DNA from: Pseudomonadota bacterium
GTDB lineage: Bacteria > Pseudomonadota > Alphaproteobacteria > UBA828
NCBI GenBank assembly: GCA_027624955.1
Contig: JAQBTG010000028.1
Coordinates: forward strand, 1 to 52,019
Reading direction: 5' to 3'
Length of the DNA: 52,019 nt
In this document: piece by piece, positions 13,553 through 36,245 of the stretch
How positions within the stretch are numbered: position 1 is the first letter of the stretch
How the letters are laid out: each line of letters begins with the position of its first letter
Notes under the pieces: model-generated
Database searches by the model: none
What the model was told of the DNA's origin: nothing
What the model saw: only the letters and a program-made list of their open reading frames with translations
Position numbers and translations under genes: made by a program

Positions 13553-15118
13553 ATGTCGATAGGTCCAAATCTCCCCAGCGTCGCGCAATTGCTCGACATC
13601 GCCGAGGATTTCGGCATCGAAATGACGGCTGAGCGCGCCGGCGAATATCGCGACGCCATGTCGGGCGGCATCCGCGCGCTCAGGCGTATCGACGACATGG
13701 TCGAGGAGCGTCCGGAGGTCAAATATCCGCGCACGCCAGGACGCCGCGCGAGGCCGGAGGAAAATCCCTACAATGCCTGGTATTGGCTGACCGATATCAA
13801 GGGCGCTCCAAGCGGCCCGCTGGCCGGTGAGCGGGTTGGCATCAAAGACACGGTTTCCGTGGCCGGCGTGCCGATGATGAACGGCTCGCGGGTGCTCGAG
13901 GGCTACGTGCCGCAAATCGACGCCACGGTCGTCACCCGCTTGCTCGACGCCGGCGCGGTGATCGCCGGCAAAACCGCATCGTCAGATTTCTCGTTTTCTT
14001 CTGGCGGCCACACCAGCGCCTACGGCCCGGTCCGCAACCCGCACAACCCCACCCATTCACCGGGCGGCTCGTCGAAGGGCAGTGCTGCGGCACTTGCGGC
14101 CGGCGATGTCGAACTCGCGCTCGGTGGCGATCAGGGCGGTTCGATCCGTATCCCTGCCGCCTGGTGCGGGGTTGTGGGCCTCAAACAGACGTTTGGCCTG
14201 GTGCCCTATACCGGCTGCATGGGCATCGAAATGTCGCACGATATTGTCGGGCCGATGGCCAACAGCGTCGAGAATGTGGCGCGCCTCCTATCGGTGCTGG
14301 CCGGGCCAGACCCATTCGATCCACGCCAGCGCGGCGTCATCCCCGAGGATTATGTGCGCGACTATATGCCGGCCATCGGGCAAGGCTGTAAGGGGCTCAA
14401 AATTGGCGTGCTCGAGGAGGGTTTTGGCCATAAGGCGGACACCTGGCCCGACATTCAACTGCAGCCAAGCGACCGCCGTGTCGATGCCAAGGTGCGCGCC
14501 GCGCTGAAAGGTCTCAAGAAGAACGGCGCGGTGGTGCAGAAGGCTTCGGTGCCGATGCATTTTGATGGCATACGAATTTGGTTCGCGTTGGTGGCAGAAG
14601 GTGCGGTCGAGACGCTGTTTCACGGCTCCGGCCTCGGCACCAATTGGCAAGGGTATTACGACACGCCCATGCTCGATCACGTCGCGAGCAGCTTCCGCGC
14701 CCGACCGAACGACATCCCGCCAACGGTGATCAATGTCCTATTAATGGGCGAATATCTCAGGCGCCATTATCACGGGCGCTACTATGCCAAAGCCCAGAAC
14801 CAGCGCGGCAGCCTGAAGCGCGCTTATGATGCGGCGCTGGAGGAGAATGACGTCCTGGTCATGCCAACCATTCCGCAACTGCCCGGGCCTATCCCGCCGC
14901 CCGACGCGCCGTTCAAGGAATATATGTTCCGCGCTCTCAATATGCTTAACAATGTCCCCCAATTCAGCACCACCGGCCATCCGGCGATCAGCGTACCCTG
15001 TGGCATGATCGATGGCATGCCCGTCGGCCTGCAGATTGTCGGTCGCCATTTCGATGACCTCACGGTGCTGCGCGTCGCCGACGCGGTCGAAAAGCTTGGT
15101 GATTGGCGCGCCAAATGA
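13553..15118 (+). CDS. Amidase (amidase signature family), copy 2
   Basis: A 521-residue amidase with triad K98 (VGIKDTVSVAG), S173 (GGSSKGSAAA) and S197 (DQGGSIRIPA). It carries an N-terminal helical extension of roughly 70 residues before the catalytic core that copy 1 lacks, and the text after the nucleophile (WCGVVGLKQTFG) differs clearly, so it is a distinct subfamily and not a tandem duplicate. GAAAGGA precedes the ATG. It ends 15 bases before HyuA and probably belongs to the same transcript. It likely hydrolyses a linear amide generated in the pathway. Confidence 0.92.
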   Translation: MSIGPNLPSVAQLLDIAEDFGIEMTAERAGEYRDAMSGGIRALRRIDDMVEERPEVKYPRTPGRRARPEENPYNAWYWLTDIKGAPSGPLAGERVGIKDTVSVAGVPMMNGSRVLEGYVPQIDATVVTRLLDAGAVIAGKTASSDFSFSSGGHTSAYGPVRNPHNPTHSPGGSSKGSAAALAAGDVELALGGDQGGSIRIPAAWCGVVGLKQTFGLVPYTGCMGIEMSHDIVGPMANSVENVARLLSVLAGPDPFDPRQRGVIPEDYVRDYMPAIGQGCKGLKIGVLEEGFGHKADTWPDIQLQPSDRRVDAKVRAALKGLKKNGAVVQKASVPMHFDGIRIWFALVAEGAVETLFHGSGLGTNWQGYYDTPMLDHVASSFRARPNDIPPTVINVLLMGEYLRRHYHGRYYAKAQNQRGSLKRAYDAALEENDVLVMPTIPQLPGPIPPPDAPFKEYMFRALNMLNNVPQFSTTGHPAISVPCGMIDGMPVGLQIVGRHFDDLTVLRVADAVEKLGDWRAK

Positions 15119-15133
15119 GAATGCGTTGACACG

Positions 15134-17218
15134 ATGAGTTATCGTTTGGGCGTCGATATCGGCGGCACCTTCACCGATTTCGCCTTGTTCGACGAGGCGC
15201 GCGGCGAAATGTTCATCCATAAGCAACTGACCACGCCGGACGATCCGTCGCGCGCGGTGCTGGAAGGCTGCAAACATCTATTGGCGCGTAAGAATGTCGC
15301 CATCGCCGAGCTTGAATCGATCGCTCATGGCACCACGTTGGTGACCAACGCGGTCATCGAGCGCCGTGGTGCGCGCACCGGAATGGTGGTGAGCGAAGGC
15401 TTCCGCGACGTGCTCGATATGGCGCGCGAGACTCGCTACGAAGTGTTCGATCTTCGCCTAAAATTCCCCGAACCGCTGGTGCCGCGCCAACTCCGTCGCG
15501 AAGTGGCGGAGCGGGTGAAGTTCGACGGTTCAGTGGAAACTGCGCTCGATGAGGCAGCCGTCCACGCCGCCATCGCCGAACTGGTAGATGAGGGCATCGA
15601 GGCGCTGGCCATCTGTTTTCTCCATTCTTATGCCAACCCGGCGCATGAAAACGCGGCGCGGCAAGTGGCCGAGCGCGATTTTCCCGATCTCTACGTATCG
15701 ACCTCGGCCGATATCTTTTCCAACATGCGCGAATTCGAGCGCTGGACCACGGCGACGATAAACGCCTACACCCAGCCGTTGTTCGACAGTTACTTGCAGC
15801 GCTTGGCGGATGGCCTGGAGGCGGCCGGGTTTTTGGGCCGCCTGCTGGTGATGACCTCATCCGGCGGCATGTTGACGCCCGACGTAGCGCGGCGCTATCC
15901 GGTGCGTGTGCTTGAATCCGGGCCGGCGGCGGGCGCGCTGATGTCAGCATTTCACGGCCGCGCGCTTAACCTTCCCGCGCTGTTGTCGTTCGACATGGGC
16001 GGCACCACAGCCAAGGGCGCTCTGGTAAACAATTTTCAGCCGCTCAAACAGTATGATCTCGAGATCGCGCGGCTACATGATTTTAAGCGCGGCAGCGGCT
16101 TGCCGGTCAAAGTGCCGGTGATCGACATGGTCGAAATCGGCTCGGGCGGCGGCAGCCTCGCCGAAGTTGACGAGCGCGGCCTGATCCGCGTCGGACCGCG
16201 CTCGGCTGGTGCCGATCCGGGCCCGGCGTGCTACGGCAAAGGCGGCAGCCAGGCGGCGTTGACCGATGCCAATTTGGTGCTGGGCTATCTCGACGCGGAT
16301 TTTTTCCTCGGCGGCGATATGAAGCTCGACGTAGCAGCGGCACGCACCGCGATAGACACAAGCGTCGCCAAACTCCTCGGCGTAACGGTTGAGCGCGCCG
16401 CCTGGGGCATGCATGAAATTATCAATGAAGACGTGGCACGCGCCTTCCGCATCCATGCTTCTGAGCGCGGCTTCGATTATCGCGGCGCCAGCATGGTGGC
16501 ATTCGGCGGATCGGGCCCGGCGCACGCCATGGGCGTGGCGCGCAAGCTAAAAATTTCACGCGTCGTCTTTCCGGCTGGCGCCGGCGTGATGTCGGCATTT
16601 GGTCTGTTGGTGAGCCCGCTCGCTTTTGAGCTGGCGCGTTCTGAGCCCTGTCTGATCACCTCCGTCGACAGTGAGGGATTCGCCGCTGGCTTCCGGGCGA
16701 TGGAACAGGAGGCATCGGAACTCCTGCTCCAGGCTGGCGTTGGTGCTGCAGAAATTCGTCTGCGCCGCCGCCTCGATATGCGCTACCAAGGGCAAGGATA
16801 TGAAGTCGAGGTCGACCTGCCGGACGGTGCTGCGATGGCGGATCTTTTTGCACGCCTGCCCGAGTTGTTTCGCCAGACCTATGCCGCGACTTTTTCCTCT
16901 AGTAGCCTGGACGAGCCGCTCGAAATCATCACCTGGAAGGTCGAGGCGGTCGGGCCGGACGTGAGCCTGGCCGACGGTTTTGTGCTGGAGGATGCCGCCG
17001 CGTCGGGGGACGCACGCAAAGGCAGCCGCAAAGCCTATTTCAACGATAGGTACCACGATTGCCCAGTTTATACGCGCGGCCTTCTGGCGCCGGGTACCGA
17101 GGTGATCGGCCCGGCGCTGATCGAAGAACGCGAATCGACCTGCGTGATTGGCCCGGGGGACGTGGTACGGGTCGATGAAAGGCGTAACCTGATCGCCGAA
17201 TTGGCAGCGCAATCATGA
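15134..17218 (+). CDS. hyuA: Hydantoinase/oxoprolinase A subunit, copy 1
   Basis: A 694-residue HyuA-type subunit (Hydant_A_N followed by Hydantoinase_A), an ASKHA-fold ATPase part of the 5-oxoprolinase / N-methylhydantoinase / acetone carboxylase superfamily. Phosphate motif DIGGTFTDF lies at 8-16 and a second one, FDMGGTTAKGAL, in the central domain; GSGGGSLAEVDERG and GGSGPAHAMGVA follow. With HyuB it would phosphorylate and open a cyclic amide or imide at the cost of ATP. It overlaps HyuB by four bases, so the subunits are coupled. The superfamily is certain; hydantoin as substrate is not. Confidence 0.9.
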   Translation: MSYRLGVDIGGTFTDFALFDEARGEMFIHKQLTTPDDPSRAVLEGCKHLLARKNVAIAELESIAHGTTLVTNAVIERRGARTGMVVSEGFRDVLDMARETRYEVFDLRLKFPEPLVPRQLRREVAERVKFDGSVETALDEAAVHAAIAELVDEGIEALAICFLHSYANPAHENAARQVAERDFPDLYVSTSADIFSNMREFERWTTATINAYTQPLFDSYLQRLADGLEAAGFLGRLLVMTSSGGMLTPDVARRYPVRVLESGPAAGALMSAFHGRALNLPALLSFDMGGTTAKGALVNNFQPLKQYDLEIARLHDFKRGSGLPVKVPVIDMVEIGSGGGSLAEVDERGLIRVGPRSAGADPGPACYGKGGSQAALTDANLVLGYLDADFFLGGDMKLDVAAARTAIDTSVAKLLGVTVERAAWGMHEIINEDVARAFRIHASERGFDYRGASMVAFGGSGPAHAMGVARKLKISRVVFPAGAGVMSAFGLLVSPLAFELARSEPCLITSVDSEGFAAGFRAMEQEASELLLQAGVGAAEIRLRRRLDMRYQGQGYEVEVDLPDGAAMADLFARLPELFRQTYAATFSSSSLDEPLEIITWKVEAVGPDVSLADGFVLEDAAASGDARKGSRKAYFNDRYHDCPVYTRGLLAPGTEVIGPALIEERESTCVIGPGDVVRVDERRNLIAELAAQS

Positions 17219-18864
17219 CCGCTAGGGGAAAACAATTGGACGCTATCAGCCTCGGCATCATGTGGGATCGATTGATTTCGATCACCGATGAGATCGTCTC
17301 GACCCTGGTGCGCACATCTTTTTCGACGATTGTGCGCGAGGCCTATGATCTAACCGCTGTGGTGACCGACGCCGAAGGGCATTTGCTCGCGCAAGGGCGC
17401 TGGAGCGCGCCACCCTTCATCGGCACCGCGCCGCTCACCATGGCCCACACCATGGCAAAATTTCCGCCGCACACGCTCAAGCCCGGCGATGTGCTGGCGA
17501 CCAACGATCCCTGGATCGGCACCGGGCATATGTACGATATCACCGTGATGCGTCCGGTGTTCCGCGGCGAAAAGCTGGTCGGTTACACCATGAGCATCAC
17601 CCATCTGCCCGATGTCGGCGGCACCGGCTTCGGTACCATGGCCACGGAAATCTATCATGAAGGACTGCGTCTGCCGCTTTGCAAACTGGTACGCGAGGGC
17701 GAGGTCGATCAGTTCATCCTCGATCTGATCGCCGTCAATGTGCGCGTGCCGGAACAGGTGATCGGCGATGTGATGGCCAATGTCGCCTGCAACGAGGTCG
17801 GCGGCCGGCAACTGCTCGAGTTCATGGAGGAGTACGACCTCGATGATCTCAGCGAATTGTCCGGCGCCATCCGCGACCAGTCGGAGCGTATGACGCGCGC
17901 GGCGATATTGAACATCCGCGACGGTACCTATCGCAACAGCATCCGTATCGAGGGCATCGACGAGGCCATCATCCTGGCCTGCCGTGTCGATGTCGAAGGC
18001 GACAGCGTGCGCATCGATATGGATGGCACCGATGCGGCCGTGCAACGCGGTATCAACGTGCCCTATTGCTACACCAACGCCATGTCGCTTTATTCCATGA
18101 AATGCCTGACCGTGCCGTCGCTGCCCAACAATGAAGGCTCGACCAAACCGATCCATGTCAGCGCACCCAAGGGCTGCATCCTTAATGCTCAGCCGCCGTC
18201 GCCAACTGGTGGGCGCCATATCATCGGCCATTTTGTGTCGCCGCTGATCTTTGGTGCTTTGGCCGAGGCCGCGCCGCAAGACGTGCAGGCCGATACCGGC
18301 ATGATTGATCTGATGAATTTCGTCGGCACCCATAAAGACGGGCGCGGCGTCTCCACCATCTATTTTGCCGCCGGCGGTTTTGGCGCGCTCGATGGCCATG
18401 ACGGCCCGGCGACAGTGCCTGGTCCGTCTAACATGGCGGTGGTGCCGACCGAAGTCTGGGAAGGGGTCACCAGCACGCTGGTTGAGCGGCGCGCCCTGCT
18501 GCCGGATTCAGGCGGTGCCGGCGCGGCGCGCGGCGGCCTCGGCCAGGAGATCATCATTCGCAATGACAGTGGCCACCCGATGACGGTTTTCTCGATGGCC
18601 AACCGCAGTGAGTTTCCGCCGATGGGCCTGTTGGGCGGTGGCAACGGTCCGTTGCGCGAGCATCTAGTCAATGGCAAGACGGTCCACCCCAAGGGCCAAC
18701 AGGTGCTGGCGCCCGGCGACCGCGTGGCATTGCGCCAACCGGGCGGCGGCGGCTTCGGCCCGGCAAAGGATAGGCCGCGCGACAAAATTCTCGCCGATAT
18801 CCGCAATGGCTATGTCACCCGCGAAGGGGCAAAGCGCGATTACGGCTTCGAAGAGAAGGAATAA
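17215..18864 (+). CDS. hyuB: Hydantoinase/oxoprolinase B subunit, copy 1
   Basis: A 549-residue Hydantoinase_B subunit, full length for the family (HyuB/N-methylhydantoinase alpha type). Recognisable pieces are TSFSTIVREAYDLTA near the N-terminus, NDPWIGTGHMYDITV, the C-terminal GGAGAARGGLGQE and PGGGGFGPAKDR, and a tail ending in KRDYGFEE. It couples with HyuA to form the ATP-dependent ring-opening amidohydrolase. Only 7 bases separate it from the amidohydrolase gene. It is one of two B subunits in the same operon. Confidence 0.9.
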   Translation: MTARGKQLDAISLGIMWDRLISITDEIVSTLVRTSFSTIVREAYDLTAVVTDAEGHLLAQGRWSAPPFIGTAPLTMAHTMAKFPPHTLKPGDVLATNDPWIGTGHMYDITVMRPVFRGEKLVGYTMSITHLPDVGGTGFGTMATEIYHEGLRLPLCKLVREGEVDQFILDLIAVNVRVPEQVIGDVMANVACNEVGGRQLLEFMEEYDLDDLSELSGAIRDQSERMTRAAILNIRDGTYRNSIRIEGIDEAIILACRVDVEGDSVRIDMDGTDAAVQRGINVPYCYTNAMSLYSMKCLTVPSLPNNEGSTKPIHVSAPKGCILNAQPPSPTGGRHIIGHFVSPLIFGALAEAAPQDVQADTGMIDLMNFVGTHKDGRGVSTIYFAAGGFGALDGHDGPATVPGPSNMAVVPTEVWEGVTSTLVERRALLPDSGGAGAARGGLGQEIIIRNDSGHPMTVFSMANRSEFPPMGLLGGGNGPLREHLVNGKTVHPKGQQVLAPGDRVALRQPGGGGFGPAKDRPRDKILADIRNGYVTREGAKRDYGFEEKE

Positions 18865-18871
18865 ATCGAAG

Positions 18872-20101
18872 ATGGGCGGAATTCTCTTCAACAATTGCCG
18901 CATCTTCGATGGCGCCGCGATGGTGCCCGGCGAGAGTATGGCGGTGCTGGTCGAAGACGGCCGCATCAAGGAAATATCTGATCAGCCGATTTCGCTATCG
19001 GACGCCCGGCTGATTGAGGCCGAGGGACGGACGCTGATGCCGGGCCTGATTGATGCGCATTACCATGCGTTGCTGGCAGATTTGAACGTCGCCAATCTCG
19101 ATATCATGCCGCCGTCGCTGCTGCATCAGCACGCCAATGTGAATTTGAAGGCGACGCTCGACAGAGGCTACACCAGCGTGCGCGATGCCGGCGGCGCCGA
19201 TATTGGCCTGGTGCGGGCAGTGGAAGATGGTTTGATTCCCGGGCCACGCATTTTTCACGCCGGCAAGGCATTGAGCCAAACCGGCGGTCACGGCGATATG
19301 CGCCCCAACACACATTTCGAGCCCTGCGCCTGCGCCGCCTATCACGGCCCGATCTGCGCTGTTGCCGATGGCGTGGACGAAGTCCGGAAGGCGGCGCGCG
19401 AAGAACTGCGCAAGGGCGCAACGCAAATAAAGCTGATGCTGTCGGGCGGGGTGCTTTCCCCGTCAGACCCGGTGTGGATGGATCAATATTCGGAAGCCGA
19501 GATCCGCGCCGCAGTAGAGGAGGCGGCGACGCGACGCACCTATGTCATGGCCCACGCCCACACGGCAAGCGCGGCGCGGCGCTGCGTCGACTACGGCGTG
19601 CGCTCGATCGAACATGGCAGCTTGATTGATCGCGAGACGGCGGAATATGTCGCTGCCAGCGACGCCTATGTGGTGCCGACACTCTCAACCATTCACATGA
19701 TGAAGGCGCGCGGCCCGAGCCTCGGCTTGCCCGCCATCTTCGCCGACAAACTCGGCACCCTGTTCGAAGACGCCCAACGCGCCGTCGCCCATTGTCAGGC
19801 CGCCGGCGTCAAGCTCGGCCTCGGCAGCGATTTAATCGGGCCGCTCCATGAATTTCAGGCAATGGAACTAGTGCTCCGTGCCGAAGTCACGTCAACAGCC
19901 GAGGCACTCACTGCCGCCACCCGAACCAATGCAGCACTGCTCAATAGGGCAGGGCAGTTGGGCACCGTCGCAACCGGCGCCATCGCCGATCTGCTGCTGG
20001 TGGACGGCGACCCCCTCGCCAATATCGATCTCCTGCAGCATCAGGGGGCGCATCTGTCCGTTATCATGAAGGCCGGCACCCTGCATAAATGCACGCTGTG
20101 A
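18872..20101 (+). CDS. Metal-dependent amidohydrolase (imidazolonepropionase/prolidase-like)
   Basis: A 409-residue amidohydrolase-superfamily enzyme. Metal and catalytic residues are visible: H63 and H65 (DAHYHAL), Lys187 (TQIKLMLSGG, probable carboxylated bridging lysine), H228/H230 (MAHAH), H248 (SIEHGS) and D320 (GLGSDLIG). The C-terminal small beta domain (GAIADLLLVDGDP) is present. The group includes imidazolone-propionase-like and aryl/prolyl-dipeptidase-like enzymes that hydrolyse cyclic or N-acyl amides. The ATG at 18872 follows a GAAG-like site; the open frame continues upstream only inside HyuB. It sits at the centre of the mirrored Hyu arrangement, overlapping the next HyuB. Confidence 0.87.
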   Translation: MGGILFNNCRIFDGAAMVPGESMAVLVEDGRIKEISDQPISLSDARLIEAEGRTLMPGLIDAHYHALLADLNVANLDIMPPSLLHQHANVNLKATLDRGYTSVRDAGGADIGLVRAVEDGLIPGPRIFHAGKALSQTGGHGDMRPNTHFEPCACAAYHGPICAVADGVDEVRKAAREELRKGATQIKLMLSGGVLSPSDPVWMDQYSEAEIRAAVEEAATRRTYVMAHAHTASAARRCVDYGVRSIEHGSLIDRETAEYVAASDAYVVPTLSTIHMMKARGPSLGLPAIFADKLGTLFEDAQRAVAHCQAAGVKLGLGSDLIGPLHEFQAMELVLRAEVTSTAEALTAATRTNAALLNRAGQLGTVATGAIADLLLVDGDPLANIDLLQHQGAHLSVIMKAGTLHKCTL

Positions 20102-21831
20102 GCATCGACCCGGTTACGCTCGCCGTTTTGCAGGGCCGCTTCGAGCAGGTGGTTGATGAGATGGACGCGACGCTGTTCCGCAGCGCTTTCAATCCGATCA
20201 TTGCCGAGGCGCATGACGCCTCGCACGGCATTTACCACCGCAATAGCGGCGCGACCCTGGCGCAAGGCAAGTCAGGCCTGCCGATCTTCGTCGGCGCCAT
20301 GTCGTTCGCGGTGAAAATGGTGATCGACAAAGTGGCGCGCGGGGCGAGCCTCGGCGACGGCGATGTTTTTATTTTCAACGACCCCTATGAGGGCGGCACG
20401 CATCTTTCCGATTTCAAGCTGGTGCGGCCGATCTTCCGTGGCGGTGAACTTTATTGTTACATGGCATCGGTCGGCCATTGGCACGATGTCGGCGGCAATG
20501 TGCCGGGGAACTATAATCCCGCCGCCGTCGAGAGCTTCCAGGAAGGCATGCTGATCCCACCGGTCAAACTGATCGAAGGCGGCGCGCTGAATGAGGATAT
20601 CGTCGATATCCTCAAAGCAAATTCACGCCAGCCGGTCAGCCTTTACGGCGATTTGAACGGCCAGATAAATGCCCTCGATCTCGGCGTCGGGCGGTTCTGC
20701 GAATTGCTCGACGAATATGGCGATGCGCTGGTGGAGGAGGCATTTACCGAATTGCGCGCGCGCGCCGCACGCCTGATGCGGGCGCATATCACCGCGCTGC
20801 CGGACGGCGTTTATTCCTGCGACGATTGGCTCGACAATGACGGCATCGTTGATGAACCGTTGCCCATCGCGCTCGATATGAAAATCCAAGGCGACTGCAT
20901 GACGCTGGATTTTGCCCGCTCCGCGCCAGCCTGCGCCGGCCCCGTCAACATCTCGCGCGCGACCGCCATCGCCGCCTGCTATGTGGCGCTCAAACATATC
21001 TTCCGCGATGTGCCGGCCAATGCCGGCGTGCTCGAGCCGATCGAATTCGTCATCCCCGATGGCTCGATCCTGCATGCCACGGCGCCGCGGCCAGTCGGCG
21101 GGTATACTGAAACCATCCTACGTCTGATCGATGTGGTGTTCGGCGCCTTGGCCGAAGCCGCGCCAGAGCGCTCCAACGGCTGCGCCTATGGCACCATCAA
21201 CGCGCTCTCGCTCACCGGGCATCGCGAAGATGGCCGGCGCTGGGTGATGTTCTCGTTTTTCGGCGGCGGCCATGGCGGCCACCCTGAAGGCGACGGCCTC
21301 AGTCACGGCAATGCACCGATCTCGACTGCCACCATTCCGCCAGTCGAAATTCTAGAGGCCGCCTATCCCGTGATGTTCAGCCAATGGGCGCTGCGGGTCG
21401 ATAGCGGCGGGCCAGGCCGGCATCGCGGCGGCCTTGGCGGTGTCTATGAGATTGAACTATTGGAGCGCTCGGCGGACGTGTTTTTGTTTGGCGAGCGCGG
21501 GCGCTATCCCCCGCAAGGCGTGGTCGGCGGCGGTCCCGGTGCCTGCAATATATTTGAATATGACAGTGACGGTGGCAGACGCACGCCGCCGCTGGTTTCC
21601 AAAATGACCGGGCTGAAGATCACCCGTGGCCAGCGCTTGCGCCTCGAAAGTCCAGGTGGCGGCGGCTATGGCAACGCCTTCGAACGCACACCTGACGCGG
21701 TCGCGGAAGACGTGCGCCTCGGCTATGTCAGCCGCGATGCTGCGGCCCGCGACTACGGTGTGGCGCTCGATGAACAGGGGCAGGTAGACGCGGCGGCAAC
21801 GCAAGCCTACCGAACGGCGGCACGAACATGA
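20089..21831 (+). CDS. hyuB: Hydantoinase/oxoprolinase B subunit, copy 2
   Basis: A 580-residue Hydantoinase_B subunit, clearly related to but diverged from copy 1. It has FNPIIAEAHDASHGIY (in the place of copy 1's FSTIVREAYDLTA), NDPYEGGTHLSDFKLVRP, GGPGRHRGGLGGV and SPGGGGYGNAFERTP, and a longer acidic/Ala-rich tail. The ATG overlaps the amidohydrolase end by 13 bases; GTG 20098 is an alternative start. It is coupled by four bases to HyuA copy 2. In this pair B precedes A, the reverse of the first pair. Confidence 0.9.
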   Translation: MHAVSIDPVTLAVLQGRFEQVVDEMDATLFRSAFNPIIAEAHDASHGIYHRNSGATLAQGKSGLPIFVGAMSFAVKMVIDKVARGASLGDGDVFIFNDPYEGGTHLSDFKLVRPIFRGGELYCYMASVGHWHDVGGNVPGNYNPAAVESFQEGMLIPPVKLIEGGALNEDIVDILKANSRQPVSLYGDLNGQINALDLGVGRFCELLDEYGDALVEEAFTELRARAARLMRAHITALPDGVYSCDDWLDNDGIVDEPLPIALDMKIQGDCMTLDFARSAPACAGPVNISRATAIAACYVALKHIFRDVPANAGVLEPIEFVIPDGSILHATAPRPVGGYTETILRLIDVVFGALAEAAPERSNGCAYGTINALSLTGHREDGRRWVMFSFFGGGHGGHPEGDGLSHGNAPISTATIPPVEILEAAYPVMFSQWALRVDSGGPGRHRGGLGGVYEIELLERSADVFLFGERGRYPPQGVVGGGPGACNIFEYDSDGGRRTPPLVSKMTGLKITRGQRLRLESPGGGGYGNAFERTPDAVAEDVRLGYVSRDAAARDYGVALDEQGQVDAAATQAYRTAART

Positions 21832-23858
21832 GCGCCGGCGTTATCGTTGGTGTTGATGTCGGCGGCACCTTCACTGATGTGTTCGCCATTGACCGCGCGA
21901 GCGGCCGCGCCACCATCGTCAAAGTACCTACGACACCCGACAACCAGGCGGATGGCTTCGCGCGTGGCGTCAGCCAAGCTGCAGGCGCAGTGGCGGGTAT
22001 AGAGACCATCGTGCATGGCACCACGGTCGGCACCAACGCGCTCCTCCAACGGCGCGGCGGGCGCACCGGCATGATCGTCACCACGGGATTTCGCGACGTG
22101 CTTGAAATGCGGCGTCGCGACCGACCGGAAACTTGGGGCCTGTGGGGCAGCTATGCGCCGGTAGTGCCACGCGATTTCAGCCTCGAAGTCGCAGAGCGCA
22201 CCCTGGCAGACGGCACCGTGCGCCAAGTGGTTGATGGCGCGGAAGTGCGTGCGGCGGCGGCGCAATTGGCGGCGCAGGGCGCCGAGGCGCTGGTGATCTT
22301 TTTCGTTAACTCCTACGCCAACAACGCCAATGAACGGGCCGCGTTGGCAGCGGCGCGCGATGTTTGGCCGAATGACTTCGTCATGGCGTCGAGCGAAATT
22401 CTACCTGAAATCCGCGAGTTCGAGCGCGCCTCGACGGCTGCCCTTAACGCTTACCTGCAACCGGTCTTGGGCCATTATCTCGAGCGCCTGGAAGCGGCTT
22501 TGGCGGCGGACGGGTTTGGCGGTGAAGTGTTTATCCACCAATCCAATGGCGGCATTATGCATGTGGCAACGGCGCGCCGGTTGCCGATTCGTACCGCGCT
22601 GTCGGGGCCGGCAGCGGGTGTCGTCGCCGGCGGCCATATCGCCCGCGCCGCCGGTTTTGATAACGTCATCACTTGCGACATGGGCGGCACCAGTTTTGAT
22701 GTCTCGGTCGTCACCAACGGCGTGCACGCCACCAGTCCGCAAACATCGATTGATTTTGGCCTGGTCATCCGCACCCCGATGGTCGAGATCACCACCATCG
22801 GCGCCGGCGGCGGCTCGATCGCCTGGGTCGATGGCGGCGGGCTGTTGCGGGTCGGGCCTGAATCGGCTGGGTCGGACCCCGGGCCGGTGTGTTATGGCTT
22901 GGGCAATTCACGCCCAACCGTGACGGATGCCAATGTGGTGCTCGGCCGCATCAATGCCGAGCGCCCGATCGGCGATAAACTCCAGCGCCTCGACAAGGCG
23001 GCGGCAGCGGCGGCGATCCATGCCCATGTCGGGGTGCCACTCGGGCTCGATGTGACAGCCGCTGCCGCCGCCATCATCCGGGTTGCCAACGGCCTCATGG
23101 CCGGCGCTATCCGCCTCGTCTCCATCGAGCGCGGGCATGATCCGCGCAAATTCGTTGCCATGATGTTCGGCGGCGGCGGCGCGCTCCATGCCGGCGCGTT
23201 GCTGCACGAGGTCGGCCTCGCCGAGGCGTTGGTGCCGCGCTATCCCGGCGTGATCAGCGCGCTTGGCTGCGCCATCGCGGATATGCGCCACGATGCGGTG
23301 GTGACGGTCAACTGGCTGTTGCCAGAACTCGACCTGACGGACATGAAGGCGCGCATGGCGGCGATGGCACGCGAGGGTGGTGATCTTGTCGGCGCGGGCG
23401 CGAGTTATTCATACGCCGCTGATATGTCGTATCAAGGTCAGAGCCATACGGTCGATGTAAAACTGACCGATGGCCCCGATAGCGATGCGGCGGCTCTCCG
23501 CAGCGCTTTTGAGGCGCGCTACCGTGAGGTCTATGGCCGCCTGCTCGACGGCATTCCCATCCGCCTGCTGAATTTGCGCCTGACCGCGTTGGTGCCGCGC
23601 GAAGGGTTCGACCTTGCGGTGCTCGCCCCGCCGGCTGATGCCAGCCTGGAAAACGCGCGCGCCGGCAGCCGTCCGGTATGGTCCGACGGAGAGTGGCGCG
23701 ATACCGCGATCTATGATCGCCTTGCGCTCCCGGCCGGTGCTATCGTGCCGGGGCCGGCCATCCTAGAACAGCCGGACGCAACGATCTTCATTGATCCCGG
23801 TCTGATTGGCGAAGTCGACAGTTTTGGAAATCTCGTTATGGCGCGAAGCAATGACTAA
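21828..23858 (+). CDS. hyuA: Hydantoinase/oxoprolinase A subunit, copy 2
   Basis: A 676-residue HyuA subunit with both phosphate motifs (DVGGTFTDVFAID near 8-20 and CDMGGTSFDVSVV), GAGGGSIAWVDGGG and FGGGGALHAGALLHEVG. Compared with copy 1 the text differs throughout, so the pairs probably have different substrates or act on successive bonds. It begins inside the end of HyuB copy 2 and its last 8 bases overlap the HpaB-type monooxygenase, which ties the ring-opening and oxygenation genes into one transcript. Confidence 0.9.
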   Translation: MSAGVIVGVDVGGTFTDVFAIDRASGRATIVKVPTTPDNQADGFARGVSQAAGAVAGIETIVHGTTVGTNALLQRRGGRTGMIVTTGFRDVLEMRRRDRPETWGLWGSYAPVVPRDFSLEVAERTLADGTVRQVVDGAEVRAAAAQLAAQGAEALVIFFVNSYANNANERAALAAARDVWPNDFVMASSEILPEIREFERASTAALNAYLQPVLGHYLERLEAALAADGFGGEVFIHQSNGGIMHVATARRLPIRTALSGPAAGVVAGGHIARAAGFDNVITCDMGGTSFDVSVVTNGVHATSPQTSIDFGLVIRTPMVEITTIGAGGGSIAWVDGGGLLRVGPESAGSDPGPVCYGLGNSRPTVTDANVVLGRINAERPIGDKLQRLDKAAAAAAIHAHVGVPLGLDVTAAAAAIIRVANGLMAGAIRLVSIERGHDPRKFVAMMFGGGGALHAGALLHEVGLAEALVPRYPGVISALGCAIADMRHDAVVTVNWLLPELDLTDMKARMAAMAREGGDLVGAGASYSYAADMSYQGQSHTVDVKLTDGPDSDAAALRSAFEARYREVYGRLLDGIPIRLLNLRLTALVPREGFDLAVLAPPADASLENARAGSRPVWSDGEWRDTAIYDRLALPAGAIVPGPAILEQPDATIFIDPGLIGEVDSFGNLVMARSND

Positions 23859-29489: not shown

Positions 29490-30245
29490 TTAAAGAAATA
29501 TATCTCCGCCATTCGGGCTCAAACATTGGCCGACATAATGGTCCGCGTCGCTTGATGCGAGGAAGACAAAAGTTGGCGCGATCTCCTGGACCACGCCGAA
29601 GCGGCCACGCGGAATGGACTGGCGTATCGCTTCAATAAGGCTTGGATCCATGCCATCGAGGATCGGCGTCGTCGTTGCGCCGGGCGCCACGCAATTCACA
29701 TTCACCCCGCGGCTGCCAATTTCCAGAGACAAAGAGCGCGTAAAGGAAACGATCGCGGCCTTGCTAGCGGTGTAGTGGGCAAGGCCCGGCGCGCCCTTAT
29801 AGGCCAGTTGCGAGGCGGTGTTGATAATCTTGCCGTGGCCCTGGGCATACATCAGCGGTAGCACTTTGTGGGTGGCGAGAAAGACGCTGCGCAAATTGAC
29901 CGCGATCATTTCGTCCCACATCTCGACGGTCATATCTTCCACCATCGCGGTGCGCCCGATGCCGGCATTGTTTACCAAAATATCGATATGGCCGAACGCT
30001 TCCATGAACTGGTCGACCATCGCCGCGTTCTCGTCCGCCTTCGACACGTCGGCGCGGATGGCGATCGCTCGGCGGCCGCGTTTCTCAACCTCTGCCACCA
30101 CAGCGCGGGCGTTCTCGGCCTGCGAATCATCGGGATAGTTGACCGCCACGTCGGCGCCTTCGTCGGCGAAAGAGCACGCCACTTCTTTTCCGATGCCGCT
30201 GCTGGCGCCGGTGATCAAAGCGGTTTTGTCTTGCAGTTTGCCCAT
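29490..30245 (-). CDS. SDR-family NAD(P)-dependent dehydrogenase
   Basis: A 251-residue classical short-chain dehydrogenase/reductase of the glucose-1-dehydrogenase / FabG-like type. Cofactor motif TGASSGIG at about 14-21, NNAG at about 91-94, catalytic Ser in NTASQLAY and the YxxxK pair in HYTASKAAIV are all present, so it should be active. The run VNYPDDSQAEN after beta2 hints at NADP or mixed preference. It is the last gene of the ABC importer operon, 17 bases after the second ATPase, and probably oxidises or reduces the imported compound or its first product. Confidence 0.9.
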   Translation of the reverse strand: MGKLQDKTALITGASSGIGKEVACSFADEGADVAVNYPDDSQAENARAVVAEVEKRGRRAIAIRADVSKADENAAMVDQFMEAFGHIDILVNNAGIGRTAMVEDMTVEMWDEMIAVNLRSVFLATHKVLPLMYAQGHGKIINTASQLAYKGAPGLAHYTASKAAIVSFTRSLSLEIGSRGVNVNCVAPGATTTPILDGMDPSLIEAIRQSIPRGRFGVVQEIAPTFVFLASSDADHYVGQCLSPNGGDIFL

Positions 30246-30262: not shown

Positions 30263-31300
30263 TTACTGTTGGCCGGAACTCAAAAGTTTTTCGGCTTCCG
30301 CTTGGAAGCGCTCGTAATAGTCTAGGGTCGCTTTTTCATCGTCGATCACGTCGCGATGTTTGAAACAATGTACCAGATGGCCGCCACCGATGTCGTCCGC
30401 ATCGGGCATGCGCTCTGAGCAATGCGCTTCCACGAACGGGCAGCGACTGGCGAGATAACAGCCATTCGGCAGATCGATGGGGCTCGGAATTTCGCCTTGC
30501 AGGCTGACCTCCGAATGGCGCTCTAAACGTGGGTTCGGCAATAAAACCGAGGACAGCAGCCCGATGCTATAGGGGTGGCGTGGCCGGCTGAAAATATCCT
30601 GCGAAGAGCCCTGCTCGACGATCATGCCGAGATACATTACCGCGACGCGGTGGCTCAAATAGCGCACCGTGCTGAGATCGTGCGATATGAACAGATAGGC
30701 TGTGTTCAATTCCTTTTGCAGCGCGATCAACAGATCGATGACTTCTGAGCGTGCGGTCGGGTCGAGCGCCGATGTTGGCTCATCCAGAACGATGAGTTCG
30801 GGGTCTGTGATGATGGCTCGCGCGATGCCGACGCGCTGCTGTTGGCCAGCGCTTAATTCCGCCGGATATTGATAGAGCGCCTCTTCTTCAAGGCCGACAC
30901 GCCGCGCCATTTCGCGCACCTGTTTGTCGCGGTCCTCGCGCGCGCTGCCGAGCGAACGCAGCGGCTCGCCGATGGTCACGCCAATGCGAATTCTAGGGTC
31001 AAGGGATTCCGCCGGTTCCTGAAAAACCAATTGGATTTTGCCTCTAAGGTGGCGGCTTCGCACGTTGTTGCGCTTGTCGATGCGATTGCCCTGAAAATTG
31101 ATTTCGCCGCCAGTCGGATCGATCAACCCGAGAATGCTCCGCCCAACCGTGGTCTTGCCCGAGCCAGATTCTCCGACCAGCGCGAGCGTTTCGCCGCGCG
31201 AGACGGTGAAGCTAACATTGTTGACTGCCTGAACCACAGACCGCGAACCGGCGATCGGAAAATGCTTCACCAGATTTTGCACTGAAAGAACAACAGACAT
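30263..31300 (-). CDS. Peptide-type ABC transporter ATPase (DppF/OppF-like)
   Basis: A 345-residue ABC ATPase with Walker [11 protein letters not shown]-loop [12 protein letters not shown], signature [14 protein letters not shown], Walker [13 protein letters not shown] and H-loop FISHDLSTV all intact, then the C-terminal Oligo_HPY region with the cysteines of an Opp-type Fe-S-like motif. It should carry out the productive hydrolysis in the heterodimer with the altered DppD-like ATPase encoded three bases upstream. The signature has Ala in place of the second Gly position (LSAGQ), a common conservative variant. Confidence 0.93.
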
Positions 31301-31303
31301 GGG

Positions 31304-32290
31304 CTAGCGCTCCACCGGGTGATGGCAGCGCACGCTATGCCCCGGCCCCATGACGCGCATTTTTGGATGCTCTTTAAGGCAGGTGTCGCTGGCGCGCACG
31401 CAGCGCCCAGCGAACAGACAGCCGCGTCCCGCCTCGGCGCCCGCTACCAATTCCGCCGGTTTTGACCACATGCCGCGCAATTTCGGATTGTGCGAAAAAG
31501 CCGATAGCAGCATCACACTGTAAGGGTGCTGAGGATTGTCAAAAAAGCTGGCTGTATCGGCGATCTCGACGATCTCTCCGGAGTAAATGATGGCGACCTG
31601 GTGGCAATAATGCGCCGTGATGCCGATGTCGCGCGTGATGAACAGCAACGAGGCGCTATGTTGCTGCACCAAATCCTGTAACAGCTCCAACACCTGGGTT
31701 TGCACCGTAACGTCGAGGCCACTGGTGGCGTCGTCGGATATGATGAAGCGCGGCGAGCAAATCAAGGCGATCGCCATGACCACGCGCTGCGCCATACCAC
31801 CGCTCAATTCGTGCGGATACGCCTTGAAGCGCCGCTTTGGGTCGGGAATTTGCACCGCGTCGAGCATCGCCATCGCCATGGCGTCGGCCTCCTTGCGCGG
31901 CAGTGACAGGTGATAGCGCGCCACGTTGGCGATTTGCTTGCCGACCGTCACCAGCGGGTTGAGCTCGGTGCGTGGATTGGGAATGACCATGGCGATGTCG
32001 TTGCCGCGGATAGCGCGCAATTCCGCTTCGTTGAGGGTGCTCAAATCGCGCCCGTCAAATTCGATGCGCCCTTTATCGACCCGGCCAGGGCGTGAAATCA
32101 GCTGCATGATCGAGCGTGCCAACGTCGTCTTGCCGGAGCCCGATTCGCCAACCAGGCCGATGTTTTCACCTTCAAGTACCTTGAGGTCGATTCCCCGGAG
32201 CGCGCGCACCGGCGCGGTTTCATAAACTGGGTAGGAGACATGCAAATCCTCAATATTGAGGATCGTGGCGGGTTCGGGGGTAGTCGCCAT
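31304..32290 (-). CDS. Peptide-type ABC transporter ATPase (DppD/OppD-like), altered catalytic motifs
   Basis: A 328-residue ABC ATPase with intact Walker A (GESGSGKTT at 48-56) and signature (LSGGMAQR at 162-169) but three changed hydrolysis residues: the Q-loop Gln is Pro104 (MVIPNPRTELNP), the Walker B catalytic Glu is Asp187 (IISDDATSGLD) and the H-loop His is Arg220 (FITRDIGI). It probably binds ATP but hydrolyses it poorly, making the importer asymmetric. The C-terminal Oligo_HPY segment with Cys is kept. The frame is clean, so this is not simple decay. It is encoded between the permeases and the DppF-like ATPase. Confidence 0.93.
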   Translation of the reverse strand: MATTPEPATILNIEDLHVSYPVYETAPVRALRGIDLKVLEGENIGLVGESGSGKTTLARSIMQLISRPGRVDKGRIEFDGRDLSTLNEAELRAIRGNDIAMVIPNPRTELNPLVTVGKQIANVARYHLSLPRKEADAMAMAMLDAVQIPDPKRRFKAYPHELSGGMAQRVVMAIALICSPRFIISDDATSGLDVTVQTQVLELLQDLVQQHSASLLFITRDIGITAHYCHQVAIIYSGEIVEIADTASFFDNPQHPYSVMLLSAFSHNPKLRGMWSKPAELVAGAEAGRGCLFAGRCVRASDTCLKEHPKMRVMGPGHSVRCHHPVER

Positions 32291-32292
32291 GC

Positions 32293-33306
32293 TTAACCCC
32301 TAACCCTGGGGTCGATGGCAAAATAAATCAGATCGACGATCAGATATATGATCAGCGACAGCACGGCAGCGAAAAACACGAAGCCGAGGACCGGGTTGAT
32401 ATCGGCGTTTAGCACGCCCTGCACGGCATATTGGCCGGCGCCGCCCCAGCTAAAGACAATCTCCACCAGCACCGCACCACCGATCAAAAAGCCATACAAC
32501 ACGCTGACGATGGTGACCACCGAGGGCAGCGAGTTGCGCAGTGCATGGCGAACGATGACCGATTTCGGCAGGCCGCACATTTCCTCATAGCGGCTGTAAT
32601 CGGATTCGAGCATGCGGTCCATCGTCGATTGGGTCATTTTGAGAATGGGTCCGCCACTGATCAAGCCGAGCGTGATGACCGGTAATATGAGATGGCCGAC
32701 AGCCGAGACGAATGCCGACCAATTGCCGTCCAACAAGCTGTCAATCAGCAGCGCACCGGTGACGGTGGGCGGTGCGAGGATGAAAAAATCAAGTCGGCCG
32801 AGAGGCGCCGGCACCCAACCGAGGATCGTGTAGAACAGAAATATCAAGACGAGGGCAAGCCAAAAATCGGGCAGAGCGCCGGCGAGAAGGCCGTAATAAT
32901 CAGAGAATTTCGCCACGATGCCGCGCTTTAAATAAGCCGCGCCAACACCGAGCGGCACACCGATCAAAAGGCCAAGCAATAGACCCAGAGTGATCAATTC
33001 AAGTGTCGCCGGCATACGCTGGAAAAGATCCTCGGTGACCGGCCGCGTGGTTTGCCACGATTTGCCGAGATCACCGTGCAGCGCCAGATTCTTGATATAG
33101 ATGAAAAATTGTTCGGGTAGGCTGCGGTCGAAGCCCATTTCGGTGCGCAGTTCCGCGAGCGTGGATTCTGTTGCGAGCGGCCCCAGCATCATCACCGCCG
33201 GGTCGCCCGGAATGAGCTTCACCAGAAAGAAGCTGACCAGCGTAATACCGAACAGCTGCGGCACAATGAACAGCATACGCTTGCCGATATATCTCAGTAC
33301 CCGCAT
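32293..33306 (-). CDS. Peptide-type ABC transporter permease (DppB/OppB-like)
   Basis: A 337-residue inner-membrane permease with about six membrane segments. The N-terminal MLFIVPQLFGITLVSFFLVK helix, the following IPGDPAVMM periplasmic segment and the EEMCGLPKSVIVRHALRNSL coupling (EAA-type) loop are typical of DppB/OppB. It pairs with the DppC-like permease, whose gene ends one base upstream. The order here is C before B, the reverse of the common dpp/opp arrangement. Confidence 0.92.
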   Translation of the reverse strand: MRVLRYIGKRMLFIVPQLFGITLVSFFLVKLIPGDPAVMMLGPLATESTLAELRTEMGFDRSLPEQFFIYIKNLALHGDLGKSWQTTRPVTEDLFQRMPATLELITLGLLLGLLIGVPLGVGAAYLKRGIVAKFSDYYGLLAGALPDFWLALVLIFLFYTILGWVPAPLGRLDFFILAPPTVTGALLIDSLLDGNWSAFVSAVGHLILPVITLGLISGGPILKMTQSTMDRMLESDYSRYEEMCGLPKSVIVRHALRNSLPSVVTIVSVLYGFLIGGAVLVEIVFSWGGAGQYAVQGVLNADINPVLGFVFFAAVLSLIIYLIVDLIYFAIDPRVRG

Positions 33307-33307
33307 G

Positions 33308-34312
33308 TCAGGCTTCCTTGACGCGGCGCTCGCGCATGCTACCGGTCATGGCGCGGCGCCGCGCTGGATCGGCCAAGACCTCGACGCTGGCGCCCACCAG
33401 GGCAAATCCAAATACGGTGACGGCCAGGGCAATACCCGGGAAAACCGACGGCCACCATTGGCCGGTGATAATATTTTGGAAGCCCGAGGCAATCATGCTG
33501 CCCCATTCAGGCGTCGGCGCAACAACGCCAGCGCCGACGAAGCTGAGGCCCGCCGTTAGCAGCACCGACCAGCCGATATTCACCGAAAGCTGTGCCAACA
33601 CCGGCGCCATCGAATTCGGTATGATATGGCGCAGAATAATGTACCTGTCTGGCGTGCCGGCAACGTAAGACGCCTCAACGAAGCGCATGCGTCGGATCGA
33701 CATGACCTGGCTGCGCATCAGGCGGAGATAAATCGGAATGTTCAAAAAGGCGATTGCGGCGATGATGCTTTGCAGGCTCTGCCCAAATATCGCCACCAAG
33801 GCGATAGCGAAAACAAATACCGGAAAGGCCTGCAGCACATCGGCGGAGCGCATGACGAAACCGGAAAAGAAACTCGGCGCGCCGCCAACTTCTTGGTAAT
33901 AGCCAACCGCAGCACCGATCAGCGAGCCAACGATTGCGGAGATCGCCGTTCCGGCGATGGCAATGGTGAGGTCGATACGCGGGGCATAGAGGATGCGGGT
34001 GAAGATATCCATGCCGGTTGCGTCGGTGCCGAGAAGATGGCGCCAGCTCGGCGCTTGCAGAAAATCATCCGGATTCGCCGTTTCCGGCGGATAGGGCGCG
34101 ATCAGCGGCGCGAATATCGCCATCAGGATGACTGTCGCAACAATGCCATATCCAACGGCAAACAGCGGCCGTGCCCTGAGCACATCGAGCAGGTAGCGCA
34201 GGCGGCTCAAATAGATATCGACGCGCCGCTCGTCCGCGTGCAGACCCGGCCCAGCCATCATGTCATGCTTGGGTGTGCGCCCGTCCGCGCCGTCGCCTTG
34301 TGAGTTCGTCAT
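33308..34312 (-). CDS. Peptide-type ABC transporter permease (DppC/OppC-like)
   Basis: A 334-residue permease with a hydrophilic N-terminal extension of about 50 residues, then the OppC_N segment ARPLFAVGYGIVATVILM and HLLGTDATGMDIFTRI, and the coupling loop FVEASYVAGTPDRYIILRHI. It has about six membrane helices. It is separated from the binding-protein gene by 61 bases that hold a strong stem-loop, so its expression is probably lower than that of the binding protein. Confidence 0.92.
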   Translation of the reverse strand: MTNSQGDGADGRTPKHDMMAGPGLHADERRVDIYLSRLRYLLDVLRARPLFAVGYGIVATVILMAIFAPLIAPYPPETANPDDFLQAPSWRHLLGTDATGMDIFTRILYAPRIDLTIAIAGTAISAIVGSLIGAAVGYYQEVGGAPSFFSGFVMRSADVLQAFPVFVFAIALVAIFGQSLQSIIAAIAFLNIPIYLRLMRSQVMSIRRMRFVEASYVAGTPDRYIILRHIIPNSMAPVLAQLSVNIGWSVLLTAGLSFVGAGVVAPTPEWGSMIASGFQNIITGQWWPSVFPGIALAVTVFGFALVGASVEVLADPARRRAMTGSMRERRVKEA

Positions 34313-34373: not shown

Positions 34374-36041
34374 TTAGCTCGCCCTGTAGAAGTCCTGGAA
34401 GCGCATATTGTTCGACGTGTAATAGGTCCACCCCATCAGATCGGCTGAACGCGCCATGGTGTAGTTCGGGAACACACCAAATACCCAAGGCGCCTCTCTC
34501 ATGACGTGCTTCTGCACCTCATCCATCATCTCCAAACGGGCCGCCTGATCAGCGGTTTTTGCCGCCGCGTCGATCAACTCGTCAACCCGTGCATTCTCAT
34601 AATTGCTGTAGTTGATGAAGGATTTGGAGTGGAAGTAGAGATTCATCGAATACCCAGGGTCCGGGCACCACGGCGAATCCACATAGAAGATCATCGGTTG
34701 CTTGCGCTCAGTGACGTTGTTGTAGAACGTCGCCGCCGGGACCTTCTTGAGCTCGAGATTGACGCCGATCTCTTTGAGCGCACTCTGATAGAGAATGGCC
34801 GTCGGCTCCTGCACCGGATCGCCGGCATTGTAGGCGAGGGATGTGGTGAAGCCATCGCCCAGACCGGCACCCTTGAGCAGTTCACGCGCTTGCTCGAGGT
34901 CGTGTTTGCCATATTCCCAATAGTCGGCGTTATAACCAGGGTAGATGTCCGGCATGCAGGCAGTGAGCGGACTGGCAAGACCCTGAAATACGGCCTTGAT
35001 GACCTGCTCTTGCGGGAAGGCGAAATTCATCGCCCGCCGTACATCGATGCTGTCGAACGGCTCGATCTTGGCGTTGAGCTCGATCCAGATCATGAACGTC
35101 GCCGGAATCGTCTCGACCGCCACGTTCGGTGCGTTTCTGAGCTGGAGGATTTCTAGCGGCTGGAGATATTGGGCGATATCGACGGCGCCGCCCTGCAGCA
35201 GTTGCACGCGGTTGGCCGAGGTCGGCACTTCCTTGAAGATGACGTTCTCCATCTTCGGCTTGCCGCCCCAATAATCGGCCCGGCCTTTGTAGACTGCCTG
35301 TTGGCCGCGCACCAGCGAGGCCAGTTCATAGGGGCCATGGCCCGCCGAATTATTCTCCAGGAAGCTCCTGCTCCAGGGGTCGTCGTCGGTGGCGACTTCC
35401 TTGAGCTTCTTGGAATCATAGATCGGGTTGTAGAGGTTGGGCTGAAGCTTCAGCAGCAATGGATTGGGATGGTCGAGCTTAAAGGTGACCGTGTGGCTGC
35501 CTTCGGCGGTAATCTGTTCCGGCCGTGTGAGGCTGATGGTGTTGGCCAAAAATCCGCCGATCGCGCCGAGCCCCAATTTGCGATGCCAGGTCCAGACCAC
35601 ATCCTCGGCAGTCAACTCGTTGCCCCAATTGCTCTTCACGCCCTTGCGCAAATGAAAGCGCGCCCATGTGCCGTCGGGGGCGATTTCCCAGCTTTCGGCC
35701 AATTTGCCGACCATGTTCACGCCGCCCGGCTTGTCGGGATAATCGGTGATGTCCTCGCGCGACGCGGTGGAGATCCCGGCATCCGGCTTCTTTTCGAATT
35801 CAACCAGGGAATCATAGAGACACGCGACGGCTTCGAAAGTGCCGAGACTGACGTCAAATTCAGAATCGAGGCTTTGCGGTGTTGCCGGCGCGGCAACTAC
35901 CATGGTGTTGGCCCGGTCCTGCGCTTGCGCTTGGCCGAGGCTGAGCGCACCCGGTGCCAGCGCGGCGCCGGCGACGGCGGCGCTGCCTTTGAGAATAGAA
36001 CGGCGGCTAACTTTAAATGTGCGGCTATCATCCTGTGGCAT
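34374..36041 (-). CDS. ABC transporter substrate-binding protein (SBP_bac_5), Tat-exported
   Basis: A 555-residue periplasmic binding protein of the DppA/OppA family 5. The N-terminus has a twin-arginine signal (SRRSILKGSAAVAGAALAPG) with an AQA cleavage site near residue 42, so it is exported folded. Family text such as YDSLVEFEKK, WTWHRKLG, SGHGPYE-like AGHGPYELASL and FYVDSPWCPDPGYSMNLYF is present. The ATG at 36041 follows AGGGAGA; a start at 36110 would put 23 residues before the signal and is rejected. It leads the importer operon and, from its partners, probably brings in a small peptide or amide-like compound. Confidence 0.92.
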   Translation of the reverse strand: MPQDDSRTFKVSRRSILKGSAAVAGAALAPGALSLGQAQAQDRANTMVVAAPATPQSLDSEFDVSLGTFEAVACLYDSLVEFEKKPDAGISTASREDITDYPDKPGGVNMVGKLAESWEIAPDGTWARFHLRKGVKSNWGNELTAEDVVWTWHRKLGLGAIGGFLANTISLTRPEQITAEGSHTVTFKLDHPNPLLLKLQPNLYNPIYDSKKLKEVATDDDPWSRSFLENNSAGHGPYELASLVRGQQAVYKGRADYWGGKPKMENVIFKEVPTSANRVQLLQGGAVDIAQYLQPLEILQLRNAPNVAVETIPATFMIWIELNAKIEPFDSIDVRRAMNFAFPQEQVIKAVFQGLASPLTACMPDIYPGYNADYWEYGKHDLEQARELLKGAGLGDGFTTSLAYNAGDPVQEPTAILYQSALKEIGVNLELKKVPAATFYNNVTERKQPMIFYVDSPWCPDPGYSMNLYFHSKSFINYSNYENARVDELIDAAAKTADQAARLEMMDEVQKHVMREAPWVFGVFPNYTMARSADLMGWTYYTSNNMRFQDFYRAS

Positions 36042-36245
36042 GAAAATCTCCCTATTTCTTCCGTGGACTTTTGCTACCCCGTGGCGAGTTGGGATAGAGT
36101 GCATGTTCAATGCCTGAAATATATATCAATCGCCTGGGATAGCCATCTCTGGATTTAGCTTTTTTGTGTATTTTGCAAAAAAAAGTGTACGCGATTTTTG
36201 GGCGCCGTTGAGCCGCAAAAAATTTACACATAAGGAACATACGAA
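36042..36245. other. Divergent promoter region of the importer and NnrS genes
   Basis: About 200 bases, AT-rich from 36112 to 36190. It contains an imperfect CTTTTTTG ... CAAAAAAAAG inverted repeat at 36159-36185. AAGGA at 36232-36236 precedes the probable NnrS start. No placed promoter boxes. Confidence 0.35.

Follow-up and report, generated by a model that had tools for sequence, protein, structure and literature searches.

Can an importer of the Opp/Dpp class run on two ATPases when one of the pair has changed at three of its conserved ATP-site motifs? The question is raised by a DppD-like subunit (D) encoded in the window, the whole 52,019-nucleotide stretch of alphaproteobacterial DNA analysed here. 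Its gene belongs to a minus-strand operon, ordered binding protein, C permease, B permease, D, partner ATPase (F) and SDR, with intergenic gaps of 1 to 61 bases:

34374-36110, minus strand: SBP_bac_5 substrate-binding protein (operon listing, domain search)
33308-34312, minus strand: DppC-like permease (ORF, profile matches)
32293-33306, minus strand: DppB-like permease (ORF, profile matches)
31304-32290, minus strand: DppD-like ATPase of 328 aa with degenerate Q-loop, Walker B and H-loop (ABC_tran and oligo_HPY domains)
30263-31300, minus strand: DppF-like ATPase, the partner of D, canonical in Walker A, Walker B, Q-loop and H-loop (alignment, domain search)
29490-30245, minus strand: SDR (FabG-like) oxidoreductase, the last gene of the operon (ORF, domain search)

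A binding protein, two permeases and two nucleotide-binding domains (NBDs) with oligo_HPY tails in one operon identify an ABC importer of the Opp/Dpp type. Pfam and NCBIfam models placed all transporter parts in this class, with scores under the equivalog cut-offs. D, for example, scored 274 bits against the DppD equivalog (NCBIfam NF008246), short of the cut-off of 541, and judged by this profile is Dpp-like and not DppD proper. Heterodimeric ABC exporters are built from exporter-fold half-transporters with fused TMD and NBD, whereas the permeases here are separate, of the importer type and accompanied by a binding protein. The listed start of the binding-protein gene is a TTG; an internal ATG at MPQDDSRTF, ahead of a twin-arginine-like SRRSILKG sequence, is the likelier start.

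The D gene translates into a clean 328-residue reading frame. The closest folds to its AlphaFold model, which is of moderate quality (pLDDT 68.8), are the OppD/DppD chains 8j5s_D (Z 24.6) and 8z1y_C (Z 24.3). Alignment with orthologues and with the sequences of solved OppD/DppD proteins placed three unexpected residues at the positions of the Q-loop Gln, the catalytic Glu and the switch His:

31979-31981, minus strand: Q-loop Pro104 (CCC), Gln expected (Pro in 15, Ala in 2 and Ser in 3 of 20 family members)
31730-31732, minus strand: Walker B Asp187 (GAC), catalytic Glu expected (Asp in 20 of 20)
31631-31633, minus strand: H-loop Arg220 (CGC), switch His expected (Arg in 20 of 20)
31793-31807, minus strand: D signature LSGGM, intact, which would complete the partner's canonical ATP site (alignment)
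31325-31420, minus strand: four invariant C-terminal Cys (C291, C297, C304 and C322; invariant alignment columns)

The first-pass annotation had described this triple in an otherwise clean, full-length ATPase that keeps its Walker A and signature, and translation and alignment confirmed both points, with Lys54 and LSGGM in place; Asp186 of Walker B is kept as well. The four cysteines form the iron-sulfur-type tail typical of OppD/DppD, with a putative cluster. In ABC transporters with one degenerate site the catalytic Glu is replaced in one NBD, as it is in D.

NBD dimers have a conserved head-to-tail arrangement, in which ATP bound to the Walker, Q and H motifs of one subunit is closed by the signature of the other. 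Checking the motifs of a single subunit overlooks half of a composite site. The partner F had been described as keeping every motif, which turned out to be wrong because its signature is LSAGQ and not LSGGQ:

30842-30856, minus strand: partner signature LSAGQ, altered, which would face the ATP bound by D (alignment, pair survey)

The first Gly of LSGGQ is missing in every complete family partner examined (LSAGQ, LSMGL, LPSGQ, LSSGQ and LSPGL). Given head-to-tail pairing, the three changes in D and the altered signature of F would fall in one composite ATP site. In transporters with one degenerate site the signature of the opposite NBD is altered, as in F, and the other composite site is canonical, as it is here, where F retains Q, E and H and D retains LSGGM. 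A built-in asymmetric importer, as first proposed, is thus still the best-supported reading, but the asymmetry is not that of one altered subunit, since F has changed too.

Orthologues were drawn from genome, plasmid and species-genome collections. All of those found, at 84% to 48% identity, carry Asp187, Arg220 and Pro, Ala or Ser at the Q position. The survey of homologues suggested by the first-pass annotation recovered the Asp and Arg in all 20 D domains examined, with the Q-loop Gln in none. These transporters (family 1) span the Alphaproteobacteria plus one Cupriavidus plasmid, the hosts being Rhodospirillales-type MAGs, Marinimicrococcus, Aestuariivirga, Mesorhizobium, Bradyrhizobium, Aminobacter and Agrobacterium besides Cupriavidus. 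The family is uncommon. It was found in 6 of 385 sampled alphaproteobacterial genomes, five of which (including that of the window) belong to one family-level group, and in 3 of 398 sampled genomes of the phylum, with the window's own counted.

To place these pairs within the class, we compiled D/F pairs, whether encoded side by side or fused, from 45 genomes of the phylum and from further loci, and removed duplicates. The 90 pairs outside family 1 and a second family described below were canonical at every position tested, and none had either the D-side or the F-side change. All 32 altered pairs (21 from family 1, 10 from family 2 and one intermediate) combined a degenerate D with an altered F signature. 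A Fisher test on this co-occurrence gave a very small p, although the sequences are related and hence not independent, so that the number of origins carries more weight. The guess that the triple is unusual in Dpp/Opp importers was borne out by these counts; the trait is rare in the class, but it is not confined to one gene and marks a whole family plus a second one. Four Sap-like pairs were counted apart from both the 90 and the 32. These SapD/SapF-type pairs (L162:1300-3096, L161, L124 and L170) have lost the D signature (LTEGE, LTEAL, IPADI), and two of them have Gln at the H-loop of F. Like family 1 they are relatives of Opp/Dpp with altered ATPase motifs, but their main loss, the D signature, would affect mainly the opposite composite site. 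Asymmetry with one degenerate site is well known among export pumps. A search of open-licence papers turned up no Opp/Dpp importer described as having a degenerate site, and such asymmetry is apparently undescribed in this class and may be new.

The second family is represented in the same genome, on another contig (C37; L194:6237-8117), by a fused DF ATPase. Its first half has Q→N, E→N and H→S and its second half has LSAGQ. Orthologues in rhizobia, including RL_RS33735 on pRL12 of R. johnstonii 3841, have Asn, Ser or Ala at the Q position, Asn in place of the Glu and Ser, once Thr, in place of the His. The same composite site is degenerate as in family 1, again with LSAGQ, but family 2 differs in its fused chain, in the replacing residues and in a separate permease ancestry. 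For each of the five parts, the protein of the window matches canonical transporters with a higher score than it matches family 2. A single origin of both families was not rejected by trees built from the NBDs (p-AU 0.82 with D, 0.85 with F and 0.47 with D+F), but the permease tree rejected it (p-AU 0.0014).

Searching the class for the LSAGQ pattern yielded an intermediate, L264 (the same locus as L246). At L264:8740-10703, Gln is replaced by Pro and His by Arg and the partner signature is FSAGQ, with the catalytic Glu retained. The permease tree put L264 as sister to family 1 (support 98) and the canonical L044 outside both (support 100); our trees were quick ones, built without bootstrap. 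This arrangement suggests that the Glu was the last to change, after the signature, the Q-loop and the His. Other ATPases with LSAGQ from the pattern search proved to be of different ABC types and not Opp/Dpp pairs, and a Phaeobacter plasmid relative of the D subunit of L264 had canonical motifs. The permease tree, together with the branching of L044 and L264 with family 1, points to two origins, and two separate losses of the composite site would be the simplest reading. Exchange of NBD genes between transporters would be a possible alternative.

How, then, would such an importer work? Most probably, the operon encodes a working Opp/Dpp-class importer with two unequal composite ATP sites, one catalytic and one degenerate. 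The Walker A, Walker B, Q-loop and H-loop of F with the LSGGM of D would form a canonical site that performs hydrolysis. The Walker A, Walker B (E→D), Q-loop (Q→P) and H-loop (H→R) of D with the LSAGQ of F would form a non-catalytic site that keeps its nucleotide-binding elements, holds ATP and hydrolyses it little or not at all. ATP held there may help to hold D and F to each other, in the manner of heterodimeric exporters that have one degenerate site. The residues, their conservation and co-occurrence, the purifying selection and the operon are shown by the sequences, whereas we infer the composite pairing from the conserved head-to-tail NBD dimer and likewise infer the slow hydrolysis and the structural role of the bound ATP.

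In human transporters with degenerate sites the partner signature is always altered, the next most frequent change is E→D, and H-loop changes often occur alongside (PMC7756269). In TAP, site II is described as active and site I as degenerate (PMC4242082). Heterodimeric exporters (TAP1/TAP2, TM287/288, BmrCD and CFTR) resemble the system of the window in damage to a single site, E→D, an H-loop change and an altered partner signature (PMC7756269, PMC4242082), but they have exporter-fold TMDs, whereas the window encodes an importer with a binding protein that has additionally lost the Q-loop Gln. The importers E. coli DppABCDF and Mtb OppABCD/DppABCD share their subunits, domain make-up, oligo_HPY C-terminus and four Cys with the importer of the window. 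In E. coli Dpp, however, both sites are canonical, whereas in the importer of the window both halves of one composite site have lost their catalytic residues. When DppA is absent, E. coli DppBCDF binds an ATP analogue in DppF only (PMC12136057), which gives a DppF-centred cycle a structural precedent. With DppA present, DppD and DppF are both able to hydrolyse ATP (PMC12136057), and this would count against one-site operation in the Dpp class. The fused importer ATPases of the RbsA/NupO type, which belong to another class, also have one degenerate ATP site (PMC11466899), but their second domain lacks the Walker A Lys; the importer of the window retains Walker A, and its ATPases are separate chains.

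A different reading is that the D-side site is retuned and not dead, with Asp187 and Arg220 providing a different catalytic geometry in which ATP is still hydrolysed fast enough to be of use. The invariance of both residues in all 20 members suggests a specific role, and exporter sites with E→D still hydrolyse slowly (PMC7756269), so that the D-side site may not be fully dead. Nevertheless, the Q-loop residue drifts among Pro, Ala and Ser and the partner signature among Ala, Met, Ser and Pro, as would be expected once hydrolysis is no longer under selection, and family 2 has other residues instead, Asn for the catalytic Glu, Ser for the His and Asn/Ser/Ala for the Gln. We consider a retuned site unlikely. 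It is very unlikely that D is a regulatory partner outside the energetics of transport, linked for example to the SDR product. Many members do have an SDR gene after F, but none lies next to F in the L032-L039 clade, which rules out the SDR as a universal part of the operon; moreover, every importer part is kept and conserved, and D has kept its Walker A and the full signature required by the site of F.

Decay of the transporter into pseudogenes in the lineage of the window would fit the fact that D evolves faster than any other subunit of the operon (83.5% identity to L031, compared with 89.5-92% for F and the permeases), a pace that would also fit a relaxed subunit. It would fit, too, the Cupriavidus plasmid copy (L109:7489-10500), in which an ORF for a Tn5-type transposase lies between permease B and D and the F gene is truncated. 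Against L031, however, dN/dS is about 0.13 for D and 0.06 for F and stays within 0.06-0.13 for all operon genes, the reading frames are complete and the altered residues are fixed across large divergence, which makes decay extremely improbable. That the three codons reflect a sequencing or assembly error has a negligible chance, and nothing was found in support of it; the CGC of the H-loop and the GAC of Walker B, both singled out for checking by the first-pass annotation, are present in the sequence, and the orthologues have identical residues in many assemblies made independently, among them plasmid sequences from cultured strains. On these comparisons the altered motifs are best described as a fixed trait of the family and not as error or decay.

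The surroundings of the operon allow a guess at the substrate. Two hydantoinase A/B pairs lie at 13553-23858 of the window together with amidase and amidohydrolase genes, and after these come an HpaB-type monooxygenase and an isochorismatase-type hydrolase; in total there are two hydantoinase A/B pairs, two amidases and one each of the amidohydrolase, HpaB and isochorismatase-type genes. Hydantoinases or amidases also lie beside the relatives L033, L233, L110, L111 and L264. L264 has an amidase gene downstream and, upstream, an ORF resembling hydantoinase B, as identified by similarity to the amidase of the window and by ORF reading. With low confidence, these neighbours hint at a cyclic amide or ureide, and not a peptide, as the substrate.

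Returning to the importer with one catalytic and one degenerate site, we give an even chance to the broader proposal that Opp/Dpp importers have abandoned a composite site at least twice independently, both subunits changing in concert, and that one hydrolytic site now drives their cycle; in the lineage of the window, signature, Gln and His would have been lost before Glu. Mutation of symmetric systems has been the main way to study whether importers need both ATP sites. Here, two natural families in which the site at the same position has been dismantled can be compared with canonical relatives and an intermediate. Whether one or two ATP are used per import cycle, and why degenerate sites arise, may thereby become testable in an importer.
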